This document shows, piece after piece, positions 1,704 to 64,000 of a DNA stretch of 64,000 bases. Where the stretch lies: NCBI GenBank assembly GCA_017848855.1, contig JAFIHF010000022.1, positions 95,109-159,108 on the forward strand, read 5' to 3'. Below the pieces are notes generated by a model. That model was not told the origin of the DNA and did not search any database. It saw nothing but the letters and a program-made list of their open reading frames with translations. The number at the start of each line of letters is the position of its first letter. The stretch's first letter is position 1. This DNA is from Rhodanobacter denitrificans. Lineage in GTDB: Bacteria; Pseudomonadota; Gammaproteobacteria; Xanthomonadales; Rhodanobacteraceae. The position numbers and the translations under genes were made by a program.

Positions 1704-2462
1704 TCAGCGACGCGACGCCGCAGCGAGCATGTGCGCAGCGAGCGCGGATTCGGCCTGCACGATGCGCGTGAAACCCGCCGCACGCGCCGCCTGCGCCAGG
1801 CGCTCGCTGCTGACCACCGCCACCGCCGCGCACAGACGCGCCCATGCCGGCGCGGGCAGCAGGCCCGCCAGGTTCTGCAGCGCCTCGGCGCTGGAGAGCA
1901 GCACGCGCGCCGAACGCGGCAGCGCCTGCAGCGCGTCGAGGTGGCGGCGATCCAGCCGCGGCGGCACGCGGCGATACACCTGCAGCTCGCGCAGCTGCGC
2001 GCCGCGCGCGGCCAGCTGTGCGCGCAGCACGCCGCGGCCGCCGGGCGCGCCGATCAGCGCCACGTGCTGGCCGCGCAGGTTCTGCGCGGCGGGCAGATCG
2101 AGCAGACCTTCGCTGTCCTGCCGCGACGGCGCCTGCGCCTCCACGCCATGTCGGCGCAGCGCCTGCGCCGTACCCTGCCCCACCGCCAGCACCGTGCTGC
2201 GGGTGCGCAGGGGCGCCAGCGCGGCGGCGAAACGCACCGCGGCGGGGCTGGTGAACACCAGCACGTCGCCGGCCAGCGCGGCGCGCAGCTGCGCGCGCAT
2301 GGCCGCGTCGTCCGCCGCGCCGCGCAGCGACAGCCCCGGCAGCAAGCACGGCACGCCGCCGCTGGTGCGCACGCGGCGCGCCAGCGCGGCCGCGGTGCCG
2401 GCGGGCCGGGTGATCACCACCACCCTGCCGCGCAGCGGCTTTCCAGTCTCCGGATCGTGCAT
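1704..2462 (-). CDS. hemD: Uroporphyrinogen-III synthase
   Basis: 252 residues. Cyclises hydroxymethylbilane with inversion of ring D to give uroporphyrinogen III, precursor of heme, siroheme and, in a denitrifier, heme d1. The N-terminus (GRVVVITRPAG) and the later VLLSSAEALQNL and ERLAQAARAAGF segments fit the two-lobe HemD fold, a family of low sequence conservation. The ATG follows GGAAGG. The usual upstream partner hemC is absent: the 5' side is the 1-kb repeat and then the nar operon, so hemD seems to start its own transcript. An 8-bp-arm inverted repeat (2498-2517) lies in its leader. Confidence 0.9.
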   Translation of the reverse strand: MHDPETGKPLRGRVVVITRPAGTAAALARRVRTSGGVPCLLPGLSLRGAADDAAMRAQLRAALAGDVLVFTSPAAVRFAAALAPLRTRSTVLAVGQGTAQALRRHGVEAQAPSRQDSEGLLDLPAAQNLRGQHVALIGAPGGRGVLRAQLAARGAQLRELQVYRRVPPRLDRRHLDALQALPRSARVLLSSAEALQNLAGLLPAPAWARLCAAVAVVSSERLAQAARAAGFTRIVQAESALAAHMLAAASRR

Positions 2463-2585
2463 GGCCTTCCAACGGTTTGCGTGGCGATGGCGAGCGCCCG
2501 CCTGCCGATGCAGGCGGACCAGCGGAGGGTACAGGCAAACCAGGCGTGCGCGTCCCTGAGGGAGGTCCGATCAATCCGGCTTCCC

Positions 2586-3592
2586 GCTCGTCATTCCTGC
2601 GAGGCGCTTTTCAACAGCCGAAGGCTGGTCAAGCACACTGGTGTCCGGAATATTTCGCGGGTGATCTGCTCCCCTCTCCCTCCGGGACGGGGGCTCGCGA
2701 GAACCATTCGATTCCGCACGTTGGCTCGCCTGCGGCGGGTTTTCGCTCGGGTGCTTTCGCAAGCGACAAAGCGGTTTCGGTCGCCTGCCGGCGCCCGAGT
2801 CACTTCTCTTTGCTGGCCCACGCCACCGCAGGAGCGGTGGCGAACGGCGCAGCCGGCCCGAAGGGCGGAGGGCAGGATGCCCGGAGTCAAGAGAAGTAAC
2901 CAAGAGAAATGGCCTGGTTCAATCCGCCGACCCTACAAGCCCGCTGTGTCGAGGGGATTGGACCAACGTTCGTCGACACGTCACCCTACAGCGGCCACTC
3001 CGCGACGTATCTGGAAACTGAGGAACGCAACGCTCGTCGCCCCAGCGAAAGCTGGGGCCCAGTGCCTTTGCTTTGCTCTTGCAGTGCTTTGGCTCTGGCC
3101 TTTGCTTCTGCGCGCAGGAGCGCGCTGCTTTTCCCGGGGCCCCTCGGCGACGGTGAGGCGGGGACGATCAGGCCGCGCAGCGGGCGTTGCCAGGGAGGGC
3201 AACGCCTTTTCGCGCGGGCAGGAGCCCGCTCGAAAAGCCCGGCCCCGACTCACGGACTTTCCGTCCATGGATGGACGGAAAGCGGCGCCGCGGGGTGTCG
3301 TTTCTCTTTGGTGACTTTCTCTTTGGACAAGCAAAGAGAAAGTCACTCGGGCCGCGGCAGCGGCTCGAAACCGCTTTGAATCTGGCGAAGACGGAAAGCA
3401 GAGCCCCTCTCCCGGAGAGAGAGAGGAATTCACCAACCAGCACCTTCCCGAATGCGAGTCGCTCGGCTTCGTCGTTCAAGGCGAAAGCCTGCGGTGCCTG
3501 GAGCCTGCAAACTGGAGCATCGAATATGCTGGACACCAGTGCGCTTGACCGGCCCTGCGGCCGTTGAAAAGCGCCTCGCAGGAATGACGAGC
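2586..3592. repeat. Composite intergenic repeat, copy A (full length, with TIRs)
   Basis: About 1 kb without a credible gene. The ends are perfect 30-bp inverted repeats (2586-2615 and 3563-3592), and the similarity continues imperfectly inward for roughly 75 bp. Two diverged inverted modules (about 2586-2815 and 3300-3592) each carry a hairpin of the ACTTCTCTTTG type; the middle holds further hairpins (3183-3206; 3257-3282 with 12-bp arms). The same element recurs at 26875 and 63565 in the same orientation; a 43-nt core (2898-2940) is identical in all three. Copy A alone has about 65 extra bases (from 2820) inside its first hairpin, themselves containing a 9-bp-arm hairpin (2821-2842). No transposase is present; a MITE-like or structural-RNA element is inferred. 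Confidence 0.85.
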
Positions 3593-3594
3593 AG

Positions 3595-3617
3595 GTAGCC
3601 CGCGTACGCCGGGCTAC
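3595..3617. repeat. GTAG-type REP palindrome after the nar operon
   Basis: Arms GTAGCCCG and CGGGCTAC around a 7-nt loop. It abuts copy A of the large repeat and contains the TAG stop codon of the PPIase gene. It matches the GTAG-starting, CTAC-ending REP class common in Xanthomonadaceae (from memory). There is no T tract, so it is more likely a REP and 3'-end stabiliser than a classical intrinsic terminator. Confidence 0.7.
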
Positions 3618-4330
3618 TGCACCAGCGGCGAGGCGACCGCTTCCAGCTCCACCCCTTCCAGTTCGGCCTGCCCCGCCAGCACGCGCACGTACTGGCCCAG
3701 GGCCTTGCGTTCGGCGGCGGCGCGCAGCTCGCGCGCCACCCGACCGGCCACCGCCTCGAACGGCAGCTGCTCGCCGGGGATGCGCCGGTCCACCGCCACG
3801 ATGTGGAAACCGTAGCGGGTGTTCACCAGCTTCGGCAGCACGCCGGTCGCGTTGCCTTCGAAGATCGCCTGCTCGAACTCGGGCACGCTGGCGCCGCGCG
3901 CGAGCTGGCCGAGCTGGCCGCCCTGCGCGCCGGAGGGACAGTTGGATTTCTCCCGCGCGCGCGCCTCGAACAGCTCCGGCTGCTCACGCAATTCCTGCAG
4001 CATCGCCTCGGCCAGCGCGCGGATCGCCGGCACCGGCGCACCGGGCGTGACCTGGAACAGGATGTGCCGCGCGTGCACCAGTTCGCCGCTGCGGTAGCGT
4101 TCGGGATGGGCGTCGTAGTAGCGGCGGCACTCCGCCGGCGTGGGCTCGGGCACCGGCACTTCGCGCGCCAGCAGCTGCTCGATCGCCTCGGCGCCGGCCT
4201 GCTCGTCGGCGTCCGCGGCCAGCAGTTGCAGTTCCCGCGCGCGCTGGCGCAGCAGTTCGTGCACCGCGGCCAGTTCGTCGCTGGGCCAGGCTTCGGTATC
4301 CACTGCCACGCCGTTGACGCGCACGCTCAC
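3614..4330 (-). CDS. Parvulin-type peptidyl-prolyl isomerase of the nar operon (NifM-like)
   Basis: 238 residues from a GTG start whose GTGA overlaps the narI stop. A helical N-terminal arm (1-95) precedes a rotamase/parvulin domain (about 105-205) with the family landmarks VHARHILF, a Gly-rich GGQLGQLARG segment and NTRYGFHIVAVDRRIPGEQL. No signal peptide, so it acts in the cytoplasm. PPIases of this NifM-like kind end nar operons in several denitrifying pseudomonads and betaproteobacteria; a role in folding or maturing NarGHI is the natural inference. The stop codon is embedded in a REP palindrome. Confidence 0.85.
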   Translation of the reverse strand: MSVRVNGVAVDTEAWPSDELAAVHELLRQRARELQLLAADADEQAGAEAIEQLLAREVPVPEPTPAECRRYYDAHPERYRSGELVHARHILFQVTPGAPVPAIRALAEAMLQELREQPELFEARAREKSNCPSGAQGGQLGQLARGASVPEFEQAIFEGNATGVLPKLVNTRYGFHIVAVDRRIPGEQLPFEAVAGRVARELRAAAERKALGQYVRVLAGQAELEGVELEAVASPLVQ

Positions 4331-10200: not shown

Positions 10201-10997
10201 AAGAAGTGCGCGTCGGGCGTGCGCGTCTGCGGCACGTTCGAGCCCCAGGCGACGATGTAGCCGGAGTTGTACCAGTCGGCCGACTCGGGCACGTCGGTCT
10301 GCTCGCCCCAGGTCTGCGGGCTGGAGGGCGGCAGGTCGCAGTACCAGTCGTAGAACGACAGCAGGGTGCCGCCGATCAGGCTGAGGTAGCGCGCGCCGGA
10401 GGCGTAGGACACCATCGACATCGCCGGGATCGGCGAGAAGCCCACCACCCGGTCCGGCCCCTGCGTCTTCACCGTGTGCACGTTCGCGGCGGCGACCAGC
10501 TCCAGCGCCTCGTCCCACTTCACGCGCACGAAGCCGCCGAGGCCGCGGCTGGCCTTGTAGTCCTTCATCGCCGGGTCGGCCATCAGCGCGGCCCACGCCT
10601 CCACCGGCGCCATGATCTGGCGCAGCTTGCGCCAGTGCTTGAGCAGCCGGCCGCGGATCATCGGGTACTTCAGCCGGTTCGCGCTGTACAGGTACCAGGA
10701 ATACGAGGCGCCGCGCGAGCAGCCGCGCGGCTCGTGGTTGGGCATGCCCGGGCGGGTGCGCGGGTAGTCGGTGTACTGGGTTTCCCAGGTCACCACGCCC
10801 TGCTTGACGTGGATCTTCCAGCTGCACGAGCCGGTGCAGTTCACGCCGTGGGTGGAACGCACCACCTTGTCGTGCGACCAGCGGTTGCGGTAGCCGTCCT
10901 CCCACTGCCGCGCCTCGCTGCGCACCTCGCCCCAGCCTTCGGAGAACGATACGCGCGGACGGGAGAAGTAGCGCAGGCGTTCCAGGAAATGACCCAT
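7239..10997 (-). CDS. narG: Respiratory nitrate reductase alpha subunit (Mo-bisMGD catalytic)
   Basis: 1252 residues, close to the usual length. Reduces nitrate to nitrite in the cytoplasm using bis-molybdopterin guanine dinucleotide and an N-terminal [4Fe-4S] cluster. The FS0 ligand pattern is seen as HGVNCTGSCSW followed by PRGCSRGAS. The start MGHFLERLRYFSRPRV is the short N-terminal peptide recognised by NarJ in this family. The ATG is 15 nt after narK. Its cofactor is made by the operon directly upstream (12446-20037), which argues for shared control. Confidence 0.98.
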   Translation of the reverse strand: MGHFLERLRYFSRPRVSFSEGWGEVRSEARQWEDGYRNRWSHDKVVRSTHGVNCTGSCSWKIHVKQGVVTWETQYTDYPRTRPGMPNHEPRGCSRGASYSWYLYSANRLKYPMIRGRLLKHWRKLRQIMAPVEAWAALMADPAMKDYKASRGLGGFVRVKWDEALELVAAANVHTVKTQGPDRVVGFSPIPAMSMVSYASGARYLSLIGGTLLSFYDWYCDLPPSSPQTWGEQTDVPESADWYNSGYIVAWGSNVPQTRTPDAHFFVEARYNGTQIVAVTPDYSEVAKLSDLWLHPKQGTDAALAMAIGHVILKEFFVDRHVEYFQDYCRRYTDLPLLVTLRKDGARWVPDRYLRASDFDGALGSPGHAEWKTVGFDADGAPVVPQGSIGFRWPGQDSPDHGKWNLEQKTGDGREIHLALTQIDRRDEVCAVAFPYFGGTEHPNFPHNAQGGDVLLRNVPARKLATKDGEVMVATAFDLLCAHYGVDRGLGGDCAKGYEDNLAYTPAWQEAITGVPAKHAIAVARGFADNAEKTRGRSMVIIGAGMNHWYHQDMNYRSIINFLMLCGTVGVSGGGWSHYVGQEKLRPQTGWTALAFALDWVRPPRQMAGTTFFYVHSDQWRYEKLDVGELLSPLADVKRHGRSLIDCNVRAQRMGWTPTAPQLNRNPLEVVRDAAAAGKEVRDYVVEGLKSGALAMASEDPDNPANFPRNLFIWRSNLFGSSGKGHEYFLKHFLGTRCGLQGKDLGEEGREKPEEVVWREPAPEGKLDLVVTLDFRMSTSGLYSDVVLPTASWYEKNDLNTSDMHPFIHPLSAAVDPVFESKSDWEIFKAVAKKFSELSVGKLGVEKDVVLTPIMHDTPAELAQPFEPRDWKKGECELVPGVTASNIAVVERDYPATYARYTALGPLMDKLGNGGKGIAWNTEHEVQGLAALNYTVADGPAKGRPRIASDIDAAETILYLAPETNGEVAVKAWAALSKITGRDHTHLARPREDEKIRYRDVQAQPRKIISSPTWSGIESEHVSYNAGWTNVNELIPWRTISGRQQFYQDHAWLRDFGEGFALYRPPIDTRTVAPLVGKKGNGHPEVVLNFITPHQKWGIHSTYTDNLIMLTLSRGGPIVWLSETDAKQAGIVDNDWIEMFNANGALTARAVVSQRVKEGMCLMYHAQEKIVNVPGSEVTGMRGGIHNSMTRTVLKPTHMVGGYAQLSWGFNYYGTVGSNRDEFVIVRKLAKVDWMDRVQHQAREEELNTKLA

Positions 10998-11012
10998 GGC
11001 GGCAACCTCGGC

Positions 11013-12263
11013 TCAGGTTCGGATTTTGGAAGAAGCATCGACGCGACCGTGGAAATCCACCTGCCGCACTTCGGTGAAGAAGATCAGGATCAGCGCCACG
11101 ATCACCACGCCGTACAGCAGCATGAAGGCGCTGGAACGGATGCCCAGCCAGTCCAGCAGCGCGCCCCAGATGATCGGCAGCAGGAAGCCGCCGAGGCCGC
11201 CGGCCAGGCCCACGATGCCGGTGACCACGCCCAGGTTGTCGGCGAAATCGTCGCCCAGGTACTTGAAGGTGGAGGCCATGCCGAAGGCCAGCGACACACC
11301 CAGCACGAACAGCAGCGGCACGAACAGCCACAGGCCCAGGCCGATGTCGAAGCTGGCCGGGCCGCGGATGGTGTGCACGGTCAGCTGGGTCTGCGGGTAG
11401 GAGAGCAGGAACAGCATCACCGAGGCCACCCACAGCACCCACCAGGTGGTGGCGTGCGCGCCGAACCGGTCGGACAGCGCGCCGCCCAGCGCGCGCAGCA
11501 CGCCGGCCGGCAGCGAGAAGCAGGCGGCCAGCGCCGCCGCCGTGCCGATCGCCACGCCGTATTCGCCGATGAAGTACTGCGGCATCCACAGCGACAGCGC
11601 GGTGAAGCCGCCGAAGGTCAGCGAGTAGTACTGGCAGTATTTCCACACCCGCGGATCGCGCAGCACGCGCAGCTGCGCGCCCATGCCCGGCGCCTTGCCG
11701 CCCTTGCCCACGCCGGGGTCGGGCGCCGACAGCAGCCAGAACAGCGCGGCGGTGACCAGCAGCGCCACCGCGTAGACGTGCGGCACCGCACGCCAGCCGT
11801 AGTGGCTCACCAGCGCCGGCGCCACGAACAGGTTCAGCGCCGCGCCCGAAGTGCCGGCGCCGAACACGCCCATCGCGAAGCCGCGCCGCGAGGCGGGGAA
11901 GAAGCGCGCCACGTAGGGCGTGCCCACCGCGAACGAGGCGCCCACCGAGCCCAGCACCAGGCCCACCAGCAGGAACTGCCACAACTGGCCGGCGTAGCCC
12001 ACCAGCCAGACCGGCACGGCCGCGGCCAGCAGCAGGATCGTCATCACGATGCGGCCGCCGAAACGGTCGGTCCAGATGCCCAGCGGCAGGCGCAGGATCG
12101 CGCCGGTGAGCACCGGCGTGGCGGTGAGCAGGCCGAACTCGGTGGCGTTCAGCCCCAGCTCCTTGCGGATCGGGATGCCGATCACGCCGAACATCATCCA
12201 CACCGCGAAGCACACCACGAACGCGAACGTGCTCGCGAACAACACCCGGTAGGCGACACCCAT
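11013..12263 (-). CDS. narK: Nitrate/nitrite transporter, MFS (NarK)
   Basis: 416 residues with about 12 membrane helices; the compact size resembles the NarK1 subtype (nitrate-proton symport), but subtype should be tested by phylogeny. Family landmarks include FAVWMMFGVIGIPIRKELG, RLPLGIWTDRFGGR after helix 2 and the glycine-rich GAGTSGAALN and GLAGGLGGFLLP segments. I place the start at 12263 because GGAGG lies 8 nt upstream; a GTG at 12278 would overlap that site. It is the first gene of narKGHJI-PPIase and supplies nitrate to cytoplasmic NarG. Only one narK copy is present. Confidence 0.95.
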   Translation of the reverse strand: MGVAYRVLFASTFAFVVCFAVWMMFGVIGIPIRKELGLNATEFGLLTATPVLTGAILRLPLGIWTDRFGGRIVMTILLLAAAVPVWLVGYAGQLWQFLLVGLVLGSVGASFAVGTPYVARFFPASRRGFAMGVFGAGTSGAALNLFVAPALVSHYGWRAVPHVYAVALLVTAALFWLLSAPDPGVGKGGKAPGMGAQLRVLRDPRVWKYCQYYSLTFGGFTALSLWMPQYFIGEYGVAIGTAAALAACFSLPAGVLRALGGALSDRFGAHATTWWVLWVASVMLFLLSYPQTQLTVHTIRGPASFDIGLGLWLFVPLLFVLGVSLAFGMASTFKYLGDDFADNLGVVTGIVGLAGGLGGFLLPIIWGALLDWLGIRSSAFMLLYGVVIVALILIFFTEVRQVDFHGRVDASSKIRT

Positions 12264-19056: not shown

Positions 19057-20037
19057 TCAACCTCCGGTGGATGCGAGATGGGGCGTGATGCCGGTGCGCC
19101 CCTGGTGCAGGAAATGGCCCTGCTCCTTGCGGCCGATCTGGCCGCCGATGGCGTGTACCAGCTCTTCGAGCTGGTCGTCGCGCGCAAGGAACCGGCGCAG
19201 CGGGATGCCGAACTCGCCGAACAGGCACAGCCGCAGGTCGCCGGTGGCGGTGACGCGCAGGCGGTTGCAGCCGGCGCAGAAGTCCTTGGAATACGGCGCG
19301 ATGATACCGATGCGGCCGGCGTAGTCGGGGTGGGCGTATTCGCGCGCCGGGCCGGCATCGGGCGCGCGCGGCAACGCCTGCCAGCCCTGTTCGCGGATCG
19401 CATCCTCCAGCGTCTCGGCGCGCACGTGGTGGTCGCGGAAGAACGCGAGGTTGTCGCCGGTCTGCATCAGCTCGATGAAACGCACGCCCACCGCATGCTC
19501 GCGCAGGTAATCCAGCCAGCGCGGCAGTTCGCGGTCGTTGACGCCGCGCAGCAGCACGGCGTTGAGCTTGGTGGGCAGGCCAGCGCCCAGCGCCATCTCC
19601 ACACCGTGCAGGATGTCGTCGAGGCGGTCGTGGCCGGTGATGCGCGCGAACGCCGCACGGTCGAGGCTGTCCACGCTGACGTTGATCGCGTTCAACCCCG
19701 CGTCCATCCACTCGTGCAGGCGCCTGGACAGCAGCGTGCCGTTGGTGGTCATGGCGAGTTTCTGCACGCTGGGCACGGCGGATGCGGCGCGCAGCACGTC
19801 GGCGAGGTCGCGGCGCACGCTGGGCTCGCCGCCGGTGATGCGCAGCTTGTGCATGCCCAGCTCGGCGAAGCCGCGCAGCAGGCGCGTGATTTCATCGAGC
19901 GACAGCGGGCCGGCCGTGCCCGCCTCGGCCTCGTAGCCGTGCGGCAGGCAGTAGCTGCAACGGAAGTTGCAGGCGGGAATGATCGACAGCCGCAGGTACG
20001 GAAAGCGGCGACCGTAGCGATCGGCCAGCGGGGTCAT
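19057..20037 (-). CDS. moaA: GTP 3',8-cyclase (radical SAM)
   Basis: 326 residues. First step of molybdopterin synthesis from GTP. The radical-SAM cluster is CNFRCSYC; ITGGEPSVRRDL follows; the second cluster is in CAGCNRLR ... CLF; the tail ends with the Gly-Gly (LASTGG) that reaches the active site in MoaA. First gene of a ten-gene coupled operon and directly downstream of a molybdenum-cofactor riboswitch. AGGAG lies 9 nt before the ATG, at the base of the riboswitch. Confidence 0.97.
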   Translation of the reverse strand: MTPLADRYGRRFPYLRLSIIPACNFRCSYCLPHGYEAEAGTAGPLSLDEITRLLRGFAELGMHKLRITGGEPSVRRDLADVLRAASAVPSVQKLAMTTNGTLLSRRLHEWMDAGLNAINVSVDSLDRAAFARITGHDRLDDILHGVEMALGAGLPTKLNAVLLRGVNDRELPRWLDYLREHAVGVRFIELMQTGDNLAFFRDHHVRAETLEDAIREQGWQALPRAPDAGPAREYAHPDYAGRIGIIAPYSKDFCAGCNRLRVTATGDLRLCLFGEFGIPLRRFLARDDQLEELVHAIGGQIGRKEQGHFLHQGRTGITPHLASTGG

Positions 20038-20040
20038 GCG

Positions 20041-20158
20041 TTTTCGCTCCTTTCCAATGTCGGGAGGCGAACGCGTTTCCCCGTTCGCCCGGTGATCCGG
20101 AGATCACGGACGCAGCGCCATGCTCCCGAAGGAACGAAGGCCCTGCGCCTCGGAGTTG
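20041..20158 (-). promoter_or_regulatory. Molybdenum cofactor (Moco) riboswitch of moaA
   Basis: The minus-strand leader ends in a stem GGGCGAACG / CGTTCGCC followed by CTCCCGACATTGGAAAGGAG just before the start codon. The E. coli moaA leader has the same end: a GGGCGAAG / CTTCGCC stem, then TCCCGTATCTGGAAAGGTG (from memory). Upstream blocks (GGCGCTGCGTCCGTGA, then GGATCACCGGGCG) correspond in order to the E. coli Moco motif. The ribosome site AGGAG (20051-20047) is at the 3' edge, so ligand binding would be expected to hide it. The outer boundary near 20158 is approximate. Confidence 0.85.
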
Positions 20159-20434
20159 CGGTTCCGATTGTGGCCCCGCTGCCGCGGCCTGTCGATGGCC
20201 GCTGTCGCCGCAAGAGCCAGCCCGCGTCGTCGCTCATCCTGTCGCCGCGATCCTTCGCACGACCTTTACGCAAGAAATTTCATCGTTGCCGCGCCAGGCA
20301 GCAGCGCCTATCTTCGCGGCTTGTGCGCGCCCGGGTGACTGCGACAACGGGTGCCGGGCGCGGGGCTCGTCTCTCGCCGGGTTCGAGCGGCCAGCCGCTT
20401 GCAGAACGATGCGCGAGGAGAGTGCGGGTCCGCC
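20159..20434. promoter_or_regulatory. Divergent intergenic region with candidate RND-operon promoter
   Basis: Between the riboswitch (-) and the RND operon (+). On the plus strand TTGCCG (20286-20291), a 17-nt spacer and TATCTT (20309-20314) form a plausible sigma-70 promoter, giving a leader of about 115 nt. No clear MerR- or CopR-type palindrome was recognised, and no metal regulator gene is adjacent. The minus-strand promoter for the molybdenum operon must also lie here but has no convincing hexamers. Confidence 0.4.
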
Positions 20435-26874: not shown

Positions 26875-27752
26875 GCTCGTCATCCCGGCGAGGCGCTTTT
26901 CAACAGCCGAAGGCTGGTCGAGCTCACTGCTGTCCGGAATATTTCGCCGGTGATCTGTTCCCCTCTCCCTCCGGGACGGGTGCTCGCGAGAACCATTCGA
27001 TTCCGCACCTTGGCTCGCCTGCGACGGGTTTTCGCTCGGGTGCTTTCGCAAGTTTCAAAGCGGTTTCGGTCGCCTGCCGGCGCCCGAGTTACTTCTCTTT
27101 GCTGGCCCAAAGAGAAGTAACCAAGAGAAATGGCCTGGTTCAATCCGCCGACCCTACAAGCTCGCCATGTCGAGGGGGTTGGATCAACGTTCATCGACAC
27201 GTCGCCCTACAGCGGCCACCCCGCGACGTATCTGGAAACTGAGGGGCCGAATCTTGCAGCGCATCGCTCTGCTTTGGCTTTGGCTTTGGCTTTGGCTGTT
27301 GCTTCTGCGCGCTGGGAGCGCGCTGCTTTTCCCGGGGGCCCCTCGGCGGCGGTGAGGCGGGGACGAGGAGGCCGCGCAGCGGGCGAGGCCATGGATGGAC
27401 TCGCCTTTTCGCGCGGGCAGGAGCCCGCTCGAAAAGCCCGGCCCCGCCTCACGGACTTTCCGTCCATGAATGGACGGAAAGCGTCGCCGCGGGGTGTCGT
27501 TTTCTCTTGGCTACTTCTCTTTTGGACAAGCAAAAGAGAAGTAGTTCGGGCGCCGGCAGGCGCGCGAAACCGCTTTGTCGCTCGCGATAACGCAGAAGCA
27601 AGAGCCCCACCCCAACCCTCTCCCGAAGGGAGAGGAATTCACCAATCAGCACCTTCCCGAATTCGAGTCGCTCGGCTTCGTCGTTCAAAGCGAGAGCCTG
27701 CGGTACTTGGAGCCTGCAAACTGGAACATCGAATATTCCGGACACCAGTGAG
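26875..27752. repeat. Composite intergenic repeat, copy B (right end truncated)
   Basis: Second copy of the element at 2586-3592, same orientation. The left terminal repeat is present (26875-26904, two changes); the right end stops at GGACACCAGTGAGC, so about 35 bp of the right terminal repeat is lost. The 43-nt invariant core is at 27119-27161. Hairpins: 27088-27121 (14-bp arms, loop CTGGCC), 27382-27405, a CTTTCCGTCCAT stem near 27464-27490, and 27511-27544 (14-bp arms, loop GACAAG). A tandem GCTTTG x4 run lies at 27271-27294. It lies 37 nt beyond the 3' end of the ABC efflux operon. Confidence 0.85.
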
Positions 27753-63564: not shown

Positions 63565-64000
63565 GCTCGTCATCCCTGCGAGGTGCTTTTCAACAGCCGA
63601 AGGCTGGTCAAGCTCACTGCGGTCCGGAATATTTCGCCGGTGATCTGCTCTCCTCTCCCTCCGGGACGGGTGCTTGTGAGAACCATTGGATTCCGAGCCT
63701 TGGCTCGCCTGCGGCGGGCTTTCGCTCGGGTGTTTTCGCCAGCGACAAAGCGGTTTCGGTCGCCTGCCGGCGCCCGAGTTCCTTCTCTTTGCTGGCCCAA
63801 AGAGAAGGAACCAAGAGAAATGGCCTGGTTCAATCCGCCGACCCTACAAGCCCGCCGTGTCGAGGGGGTTGGACCAACGCTTGTCGACACGTCGCCCCTC
63901 AGCAGCCACGCCGCGACGTATCTGAAAACTGAGGAACAAAGCTTCGCAGCGCTTCGCCTCCCCTCGCGCTGTATCTCCCTCCCCTGCGTGCAGGGGGGGG
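63565..64000. repeat. Composite intergenic repeat, copy C (cut by window end)
   Basis: Third copy, same orientation, beginning 15 nt after the aguB stop. Left terminal repeat 63565-63594; first hairpin 63778-63811 with 14-bp arms (GTTCCTTCTCTTTG and complement) and loop CTGGCC; 43-nt invariant core at 63809-63851. The right half lies beyond the window, and after about 63930 it diverges from copies A and B. Confidence 0.85.

Follow-up and report, generated by a model that had tools for sequence, protein, structure and literature searches.

A dispersed, high-copy non-coding element of Rhodanobacter denitrificans built from candidate structured RNA units with a proposed triple-helix pseudoknot and putative CsrA-binding hairpins

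Small RNAs of the CsrB/RsmZ type and RsmU of Xanthomonas carry several hairpins with GGA loops (PMC7694677), and the primary site recognized by CsrA/RsmA is A(N)GGA (PMC4066749). RsmU derives from a 3' UTR, and its authors report that they found no homologue of CsrB or RsmY/Z in Xanthomonas (PMC7694677). At the DNA level, intrastrand triplex repeats of the TMECO/PIT kind combine a hairpin with a mirror-repeat third strand (PMC4666352), and MITEs and CGTC/GTAG REP sequences are non-coding, palindromic, intergenic and present in many copies (PMC3733652). The element analyzed here occurs three times in a window of 64,000 nt (the whole stretch of DNA that was studied) and resembles each of these systems in part: its tail carries GGA-loop hairpins, its head pairs a hairpin with a mirror-repeat third strand, and it is non-coding, palindromic, intergenic and multicopy, with a CGTC half palindrome in the ends of its shell. 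Triple helices are also found in the H-type pseudoknots of telomerase RNA and SAM-II and in MALAT1/ENE; in all of these, as proposed for the head, a pyrimidine strand occupies the major groove of a stem rich in A.

The same comparisons set the element apart. Unlike CsrB, RsmZ and RsmU, it is dispersed as an estimated 100 heads per genome, arranged in inverted pairs with a triple-helix pseudoknot at the 3' side, and its CsrA binding is putative. In the classification of PMC4666352, the sense strand of the head corresponds to class IV and its complement to class II; however, TMECO is a G/C-rich plain hairpin-triplex, whereas the head is rich in A/T, contains a pseudoknot and belongs to a larger unit. 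Some heads may be listed in the triplex database of that paper. In contrast to MITEs and REP sequences, the ends of the element are inconstant across genomes, and its conserved part is an internal folded unit. In contrast to telomerase RNA, SAM-II and MALAT1/ENE, the head is bacterial, high-copy and in line with CsrA-type hairpins. A literature search, judged mostly from titles and summaries of the papers listed, yielded no description of the element, and none of six core strings turned up in a paper; each ingredient is known on its own, and the combined element is so far undescribed.

No Rfam family matches the element in the window, and at four loci no CsrB/CsrC/RsmX/Y/Z/W family was matched, RsmW scoring E 0.87 and 25.2 bits against a cut-off of 52; a known RNA family was accordingly dropped as an explanation. 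The only Rfam match in the window lies elsewhere, at 20031-20167 on the minus strand, and is a molybdenum/tungsten (Moco) riboswitch aptamer (70.2 bits). The TMECO pattern CCCTCNCCC..GGGNGAGGG..GGGNGAGGG gave 0 exact matches to its first two blocks in the window; with a wider first loop, it was seen in or beside 24 of 327 loci.

The core of each of the three copies (A, B and C) consists of two back-to-back units. Read 5' to 3' on its sense strand, defined as the strand reading tail and then head, a unit comprises a hairpin tail followed by a head of ~83 nt. In the comparison of copies, a head of ~110 bp is common to the L and R units, and the tails differ (L, R and a third type). The features in the window are the following.

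2586..3592, no strand assigned: copy A, the whole nest (shell plus two inner units)
2586..2615, plus strand: outer left end of A, a perfect 30-bp inverted repeat with a CGTC-type half palindrome
3563..3592, minus strand: outer right end of A, partner of 2586-2615
2766..3026, minus strand (sense = minus): left inner unit of A, L type, with the tail end taken from HSP limits
2766-2916, minus strand: head of A's left unit, 65.6 bits, its apical loop enlarged by an insert of ~70 nt
3104..3379, plus strand (sense = plus): right inner unit of A, R type, multi-hairpin tail and then head
3110..3125, plus strand: hairpin with AGGA loop in A's R unit, read in the sequence, fold predicted
3184..3205, plus strand: hairpin with loop AGGGAG in A's R unit, stem pairs compensated
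3206..3237, plus strand: hairpin with AGGA loop in A's R unit, from alignment and fold
3257..3282, plus strand: hairpin with loop ATGGAT in A's R unit, from alignment and fold
3295..3379, plus strand: head of A's right unit, 93 bits with model R1
3295..3299, plus strand: 5' strand of the pseudoknot, GTGTC, pairing with the loop at 3326-3331
3300..3309, plus strand: pyrimidine tract proposed as the third strand of a triple helix
3311..3346, plus strand: head hairpin with a 15-bp stem and loop GACAAG, its purine arm taking the third strand
26875..27752, no strand assigned: copy B
27055..27137, minus strand: head of B's left unit, 96 bits
27288..27608, plus strand: B's right unit, R type, with its head at 27494-27578
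63565..64000, no strand assigned: copy C, cut by the contig end
63745..63827, minus strand: head of C's left unit, 93.1 bits

The original prediction had described three non-coding copies with a common order of blocks, a 43-nt stretch identical in all three and perfect 30-bp ends in A; all of this proved real, and the copies turned out to be nested. The longer terminal arms of A measure 47 nt and are 91% complementary, with half a CGTC stem at each end of the copy; a full CGTC REP would join the CGTC tag to a complete short stem-loop and a CCA tail. In A and B the left unit lies on the minus strand and the right unit on the plus strand; copy C keeps its left unit and is incomplete because contig C51 stops where the window stops. 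The back-to-back arrangement was present in all 32 multi-unit loci among the 50 loci analyzed for gene context, and in two distant loci, L144 and L149, the heads face each other. The shell (positions 1-165 and 830-1007 of A) was also found without a core (C61:350231-350706) and varies among genomes, the perfect 30-bp ends being those noted for A. Terminal inverted repeats are absent or different in many copies and genomes, and the units of other species are single or paired, mostly without the shell of A. The earlier picture of the copy was corrected: as judged from sequence comparison, a single copy is not one unit, and the reproducible object across genomes is the inner head-plus-tail unit.

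None of the six ORFs of A matched Pfam or NCBIfam at E<=0.01, so the protein-coding reading of A was dropped, in agreement with the predicted absence of a conserved reading frame. The accompanying remark that short hypothetical proteins of Xanthomonadaceae look like chance translations of such elements was checked solely as this absence of Pfam/NCBIfam matches for the six ORFs of A. When genes were called across 50 element loci, none overlapped an element by more than 100 nt (0/50); a separate run placed one ORF, of 177 nt, at the margin of copy B.

Several loci show individual variations on this architecture. The insert of ~70 nt in the apical loop of the triple-helix hairpin, seen at 2766-2916, recurs at L115:10270-10423 and 10904-11058. 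The third tail type at L110:14106-14440 contains GGAGGAAAGTCC, which we take to resemble a conserved RNase P stretch; an Rfam search of L045, a locus with a third-type tail, gave no RNase P match. At L152 a gene is located between back-to-back heads 1.3 kb apart (95-172 and 1501-1576), and its end has, by eye, the look of a nuclease-type (PD-(D/E)XK) domain. A lone shell end with a REP-like closing half lies at C61:184229-184343 and gives the impression of a CGTC repeat with a filled loop.

The expectation of many copies per genome was borne out by a search of the genome of origin (G000, 3.49 Mb in 73 contigs), which revealed 135 matching pieces in at least 40 places, A and B included (40 of 254 candidates being scored); 458 kb of it contain 14 heads, and the six complete pairs among them all run minus then plus; if evenly spread, this extrapolates to about 100 heads per genome. 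Seven heads were detected in 400 kb of G011. The search of relatives that had been proposed likewise yielded copies beyond the window, with matches in 42 of 61 genomes searched and, within the genus, in 14 of 15, the genome of origin counted. Within the class, the head model matched 69 of 274 genomes, from 61 of 222 genera; in the phylum it matched 55 of 299 genomes, a set that overlaps the class set and whose hits outside the class are weak. A generic head matched 21 plasmid or chromid records, and its named matches were to Burkholderia, Paraburkholderia, Aeromonas, Pasteurella, Pseudoalteromonas and one plasmid of Ilyobacter, a member of another phylum; in Paraburkholderia, at least 38-40 places were found in each of seven replicons. 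No phage record matched the generic head. Two exact patterns matched 0 and 2 viral contigs, and one exact pattern matched 1 public genome contig. A phage or plasmid origin was rejected, as copy B matches none of 50,697 phage or 72,556 plasmid records. Contigs C12, C30, C32, C39, C44, C46, C53, C62, C67 and others of G000 begin or end inside copies, and the element accounts for the intergenic repeat breaking this assembly.

The surroundings of the heads differ as well: CGTC-type ends occur in the genome of origin and in G141, and one G141 copy has complete REP-like ends. A 455-bp carrier with a single unit, found in G307 (L172, L173, L174), has the ends CAGGGCAAACGCATTAAAA; its 19-bp inverted ends are perfect in one of four copies and contain one or two mismatches in the other three; 10-bp target duplications were present at two of the four. 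Carriers with differing ends and the target duplications of G307 indicate that units move, at least as passengers. Inspection of 15 units by eye revealed no transposase between two heads that would mark an autonomous form, and no target duplication was seen in the flanks of A. In relatives, 11 loci have the left flank of A and two its right flank, in each case without the element, and the two flanks are not neighbors there, so synteny is broken at A's site and the empty site with a target duplication that was sought in relatives was not obtained. Of the two identities suggested in the original prediction, the large MITE-like element finds partial support: the G307 carrier has 19-bp inverted ends and, at two of four copies, 10-bp duplications, but A shows no duplication, its outer ends are inconstant and its flanks occur without the element in relatives; the unrecognized structured RNA or DNA family holds for the inner unit, given its covariation, pseudoknot and third strand.

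RNAalifold predicted 82 pairs in the R-type tails (47 units), 32 of which are changed on both sides. Folds of both strands agreed on 89 pairs, with at least two Watson-Crick types in 36 and at least three in 17, and these agreed pairs are Watson-Crick in 3921 of 4140 cells. The tail hairpin at 3184-3205 of A carries C-A-(N)-G-G-A-N-G, invariant in 47/47 aligned units (the first N missing in 3), on a stem in which five pairs show three or four pair types. In the head, 15 of 21 pairs are changed on both sides (76 heads). The head folds as an H-type pseudoknot in which a strand of 4-5 nt is complementary to the loop of a hairpin with a 12-15 bp stem, and a small hairpin follows; the strand and loop change together across heads (GTGTC/GACA, GTGGCC/GGCCA, GTGCTC/GAGCA). 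A pyrimidine tract between this strand and the hairpin repeats the hairpin's pyrimidine arm read backwards, which aligns it base by base with the purine arm to give U.A-U and C+.G-C triples.

Both tertiary contacts were compared with re-paired heads, 110 of 125 heads being parsed. The third strand matches its hairpin arm at 7.64 of 8 positions against 6.67 (sd 0.08) after re-pairing in 56 unique heads (z 12), and the pseudoknot matches at 3.91 of 4 against 3.09 (sd 0.06; z 13), perfectly in 72 of 79. The model that found the distant heads included neither the pseudoknot nor the third strand. A hold-out of distant loci, of which 36 of 40 could be parsed, gave z values of 6.0 for the third strand and 8.6 for the pseudoknot; most of these loci belong to genomes already represented in the first set, so that the hold-out is not wholly independent. 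Across 83 unique heads, 624 of 664 triple positions are T.A-T or C.G-C, counted with the register chosen for best fit and with three heads fitting at fewer than 6 of 8 positions dropped. At five places the purine arm has a T, and the third strand has G at four of them, the fifth being a doubtful parse; in this triple motif, T-A is known to be read by G. We regard the third strand as very probably real, and the structure of the unit as a whole is well supported by these sequence comparisons.

The pairs also bear on the nature of the folded molecule. At pairs chosen without strand bias, G-U exceeds A-C in 94 versus 45 genome-level events and in 60 versus 31 columns. RNA of the sense strand is favored because of this excess and because the loop motif is directional; fold stability is undecisive, since both strands fold far below shuffles (z -7.5 for the other strand and -6.4 for the sense strand). 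It is therefore quite likely that the unit is structured as RNA of the sense strand. A consensus scan of 2400-3800, which misses other promoter types, showed no sigma-70-like promoter, and no terminator-like site follows the head in copy A; terminator-like sites in 2400-3800 are in excess, at 7 versus 1.4 in shuffles. Of 12 single-unit loci flanked by co-directional genes, 9 have a sense strand that runs counter to the genes, so that ordinary read-through would yield antisense transcripts.

We consider it rather unlikely that the structure acts only at the DNA level, as a palindromic REP- or MITE-like repeat whose hairpins or triplex are recognized in transposition or replication, with no functional RNA. 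Such a repeat would explain the high copy number, the intergenic sites, the inverted pairs and the inverted-repeat carriers, and it agrees with the strong folding of both strands, the synteny break at A's site and the existence in bacteria of intrastrand DNA triplex repeats tied to rearrangement (PMC4666352); however, it leaves unexplained why G-U outnumbers A-C two to one on one strand and why A(N)GGA loops sit on the sense strand, with loops mostly of other kinds where csrA is missing.

The loops of the R-type tails are A(N)GGA closed by C-G. This closed motif occurs at least once in 46 of 47 R-type units and at least twice in 45 of 47; the L-type tails of A, B and C contain no closed GGA motif. 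Upstream of 41 distant heads, GGA loops number 39 and TCC loops 3, against 10 and 13.5 in scaled controls, and the hold-out tails gave 35 GGA versus 7 TCC loops in 37 units. When one unit per locus is counted, a GGA loop is present in 17 of 29 and a TCC loop in 1 of 29, with ACAAGGATGT and ACAGGGATGT among the GGA/TCC loops listed. Among hexaloop hairpins of G000 and G011 combined, ANGGAN accounts for 14 of 40 in element zones versus 10 of 301 outside.

The csrA gene is present in the genome of origin. Across genomes, the closed motif (CANGGANG hairpins) was found in 50 of 103 units of csrA-positive genomes versus 2 of 38 units of csrA-negative ones, counts that leave out the units of 20 loci and units with less than 120 nt upstream. 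By genome, the ratio is 22 of 40 (csrA being assumed for one of them, G598) versus 2 of 9, the latter set comprising four families (all six f118 genomes, G534, G182 and G318); the examined units of the other 18 of the 40 csrA-positive genomes lack the closed motif. Two incomplete genomes lacking a csrA hit contributed four further units that were kept out of these counts; two of the four have the motif. On the other strand, the closed motif appears in 8 of the first 99 csrA-positive units and in none of the 4 added. The gene itself is present in 59 of 69 element-bearing genomes and in 176 of 205 element-free ones, and csrA as a prerequisite of the element was thereby ruled out. The involvement of CsrA is supported rather than proved, because four families are few and approximately half of the csrA-positive units lack the motif; from these sequence patterns, binding of CsrA to the tail hairpins is probable.

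Alternatively, the GGA loops of a structured RNA could serve a partner other than CsrA, such as the ribosome, an RNase or another RNA, the element being, for example, a dispersed terminator, stabilizer or gene-end insulator. Its preference for gene ends fits this proposal, with 19 of 50 element loci between convergent genes versus 30 of 202 gaps and 3 of 50 between divergent genes versus 49 of 202 (a background that includes the element sites), as do the excess of terminator-like sites in A and the lack of relation between element presence and csrA. We nevertheless judge it unlikely, considering that the loops conform to the A(N)GGA primary site, including the variable N, as given in PMC4066749, and that the closed motif is rare in csrA-negative genomes. 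It is very improbable that the covariation arose through template switching during the repair of imperfect palindromes in DNA and is silent on function, since such repair would produce the near-perfect stems (3921/4140 cells Watson-Crick) with few G-U intermediates, but neither a parallel third-strand match, nor covariation between the loop and the upstream pseudoknot strand, nor invariant A(N)GGA loops.

On balance, we lean towards reading the core as two units, placed back to back, of a structured non-coding RNA that is dispersed, mobile, high-copy and CsrA-binding, with a triple helix guarding its 3' end. Under this CsrA-binding reading, the sense strand of the unit would be transcribed, CsrA/RsmA would dock on the GGA tail hairpins, and the triple-helix pseudoknot would shield the 3' end of the RNA. 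Each GGA-type unit could then act as a small CsrA decoy or docking RNA, and ~100 heads per genome might represent either a distributed CsrA buffer or a selfish repeat exploiting CsrA. The units would travel as passengers, in an inverted-repeat carrier in G307 and in REP-like shells in the genome of origin, and would settle mostly at gene ends. A net sponge effect on CsrA, as predicted from sequence, is conceivable but doubtful. More broadly, we tentatively hypothesize that class-wide mobile RNA genes, in selfish or domesticated pairs, buffer CsrA instead of or besides dedicated sponges, and that the docking hairpins decay after CsrA loss while the triple-helix end is kept.

If these readings are correct, the element would represent a new structured RNA family present in roughly one in four sampled genomes of the class (69/274), a naturally covarying bacterial major-groove triple helix with dozens of sequence variants, and a global post-transcriptional regulator tied to a mobile repeat. 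The question of a CsrA/RsmA antagonist in bacteria without CsrB/RsmZ homologues is thereby made directly testable. Finally, stand-alone hairpins with GGA-type loops, of the rough form TTnTGCGnnn-loop-nnnCGCA, were observed outside the elements, at C61:154503, C61:312183, on C51 before the window, and at 81062 and 380950 of the G011 stretch.
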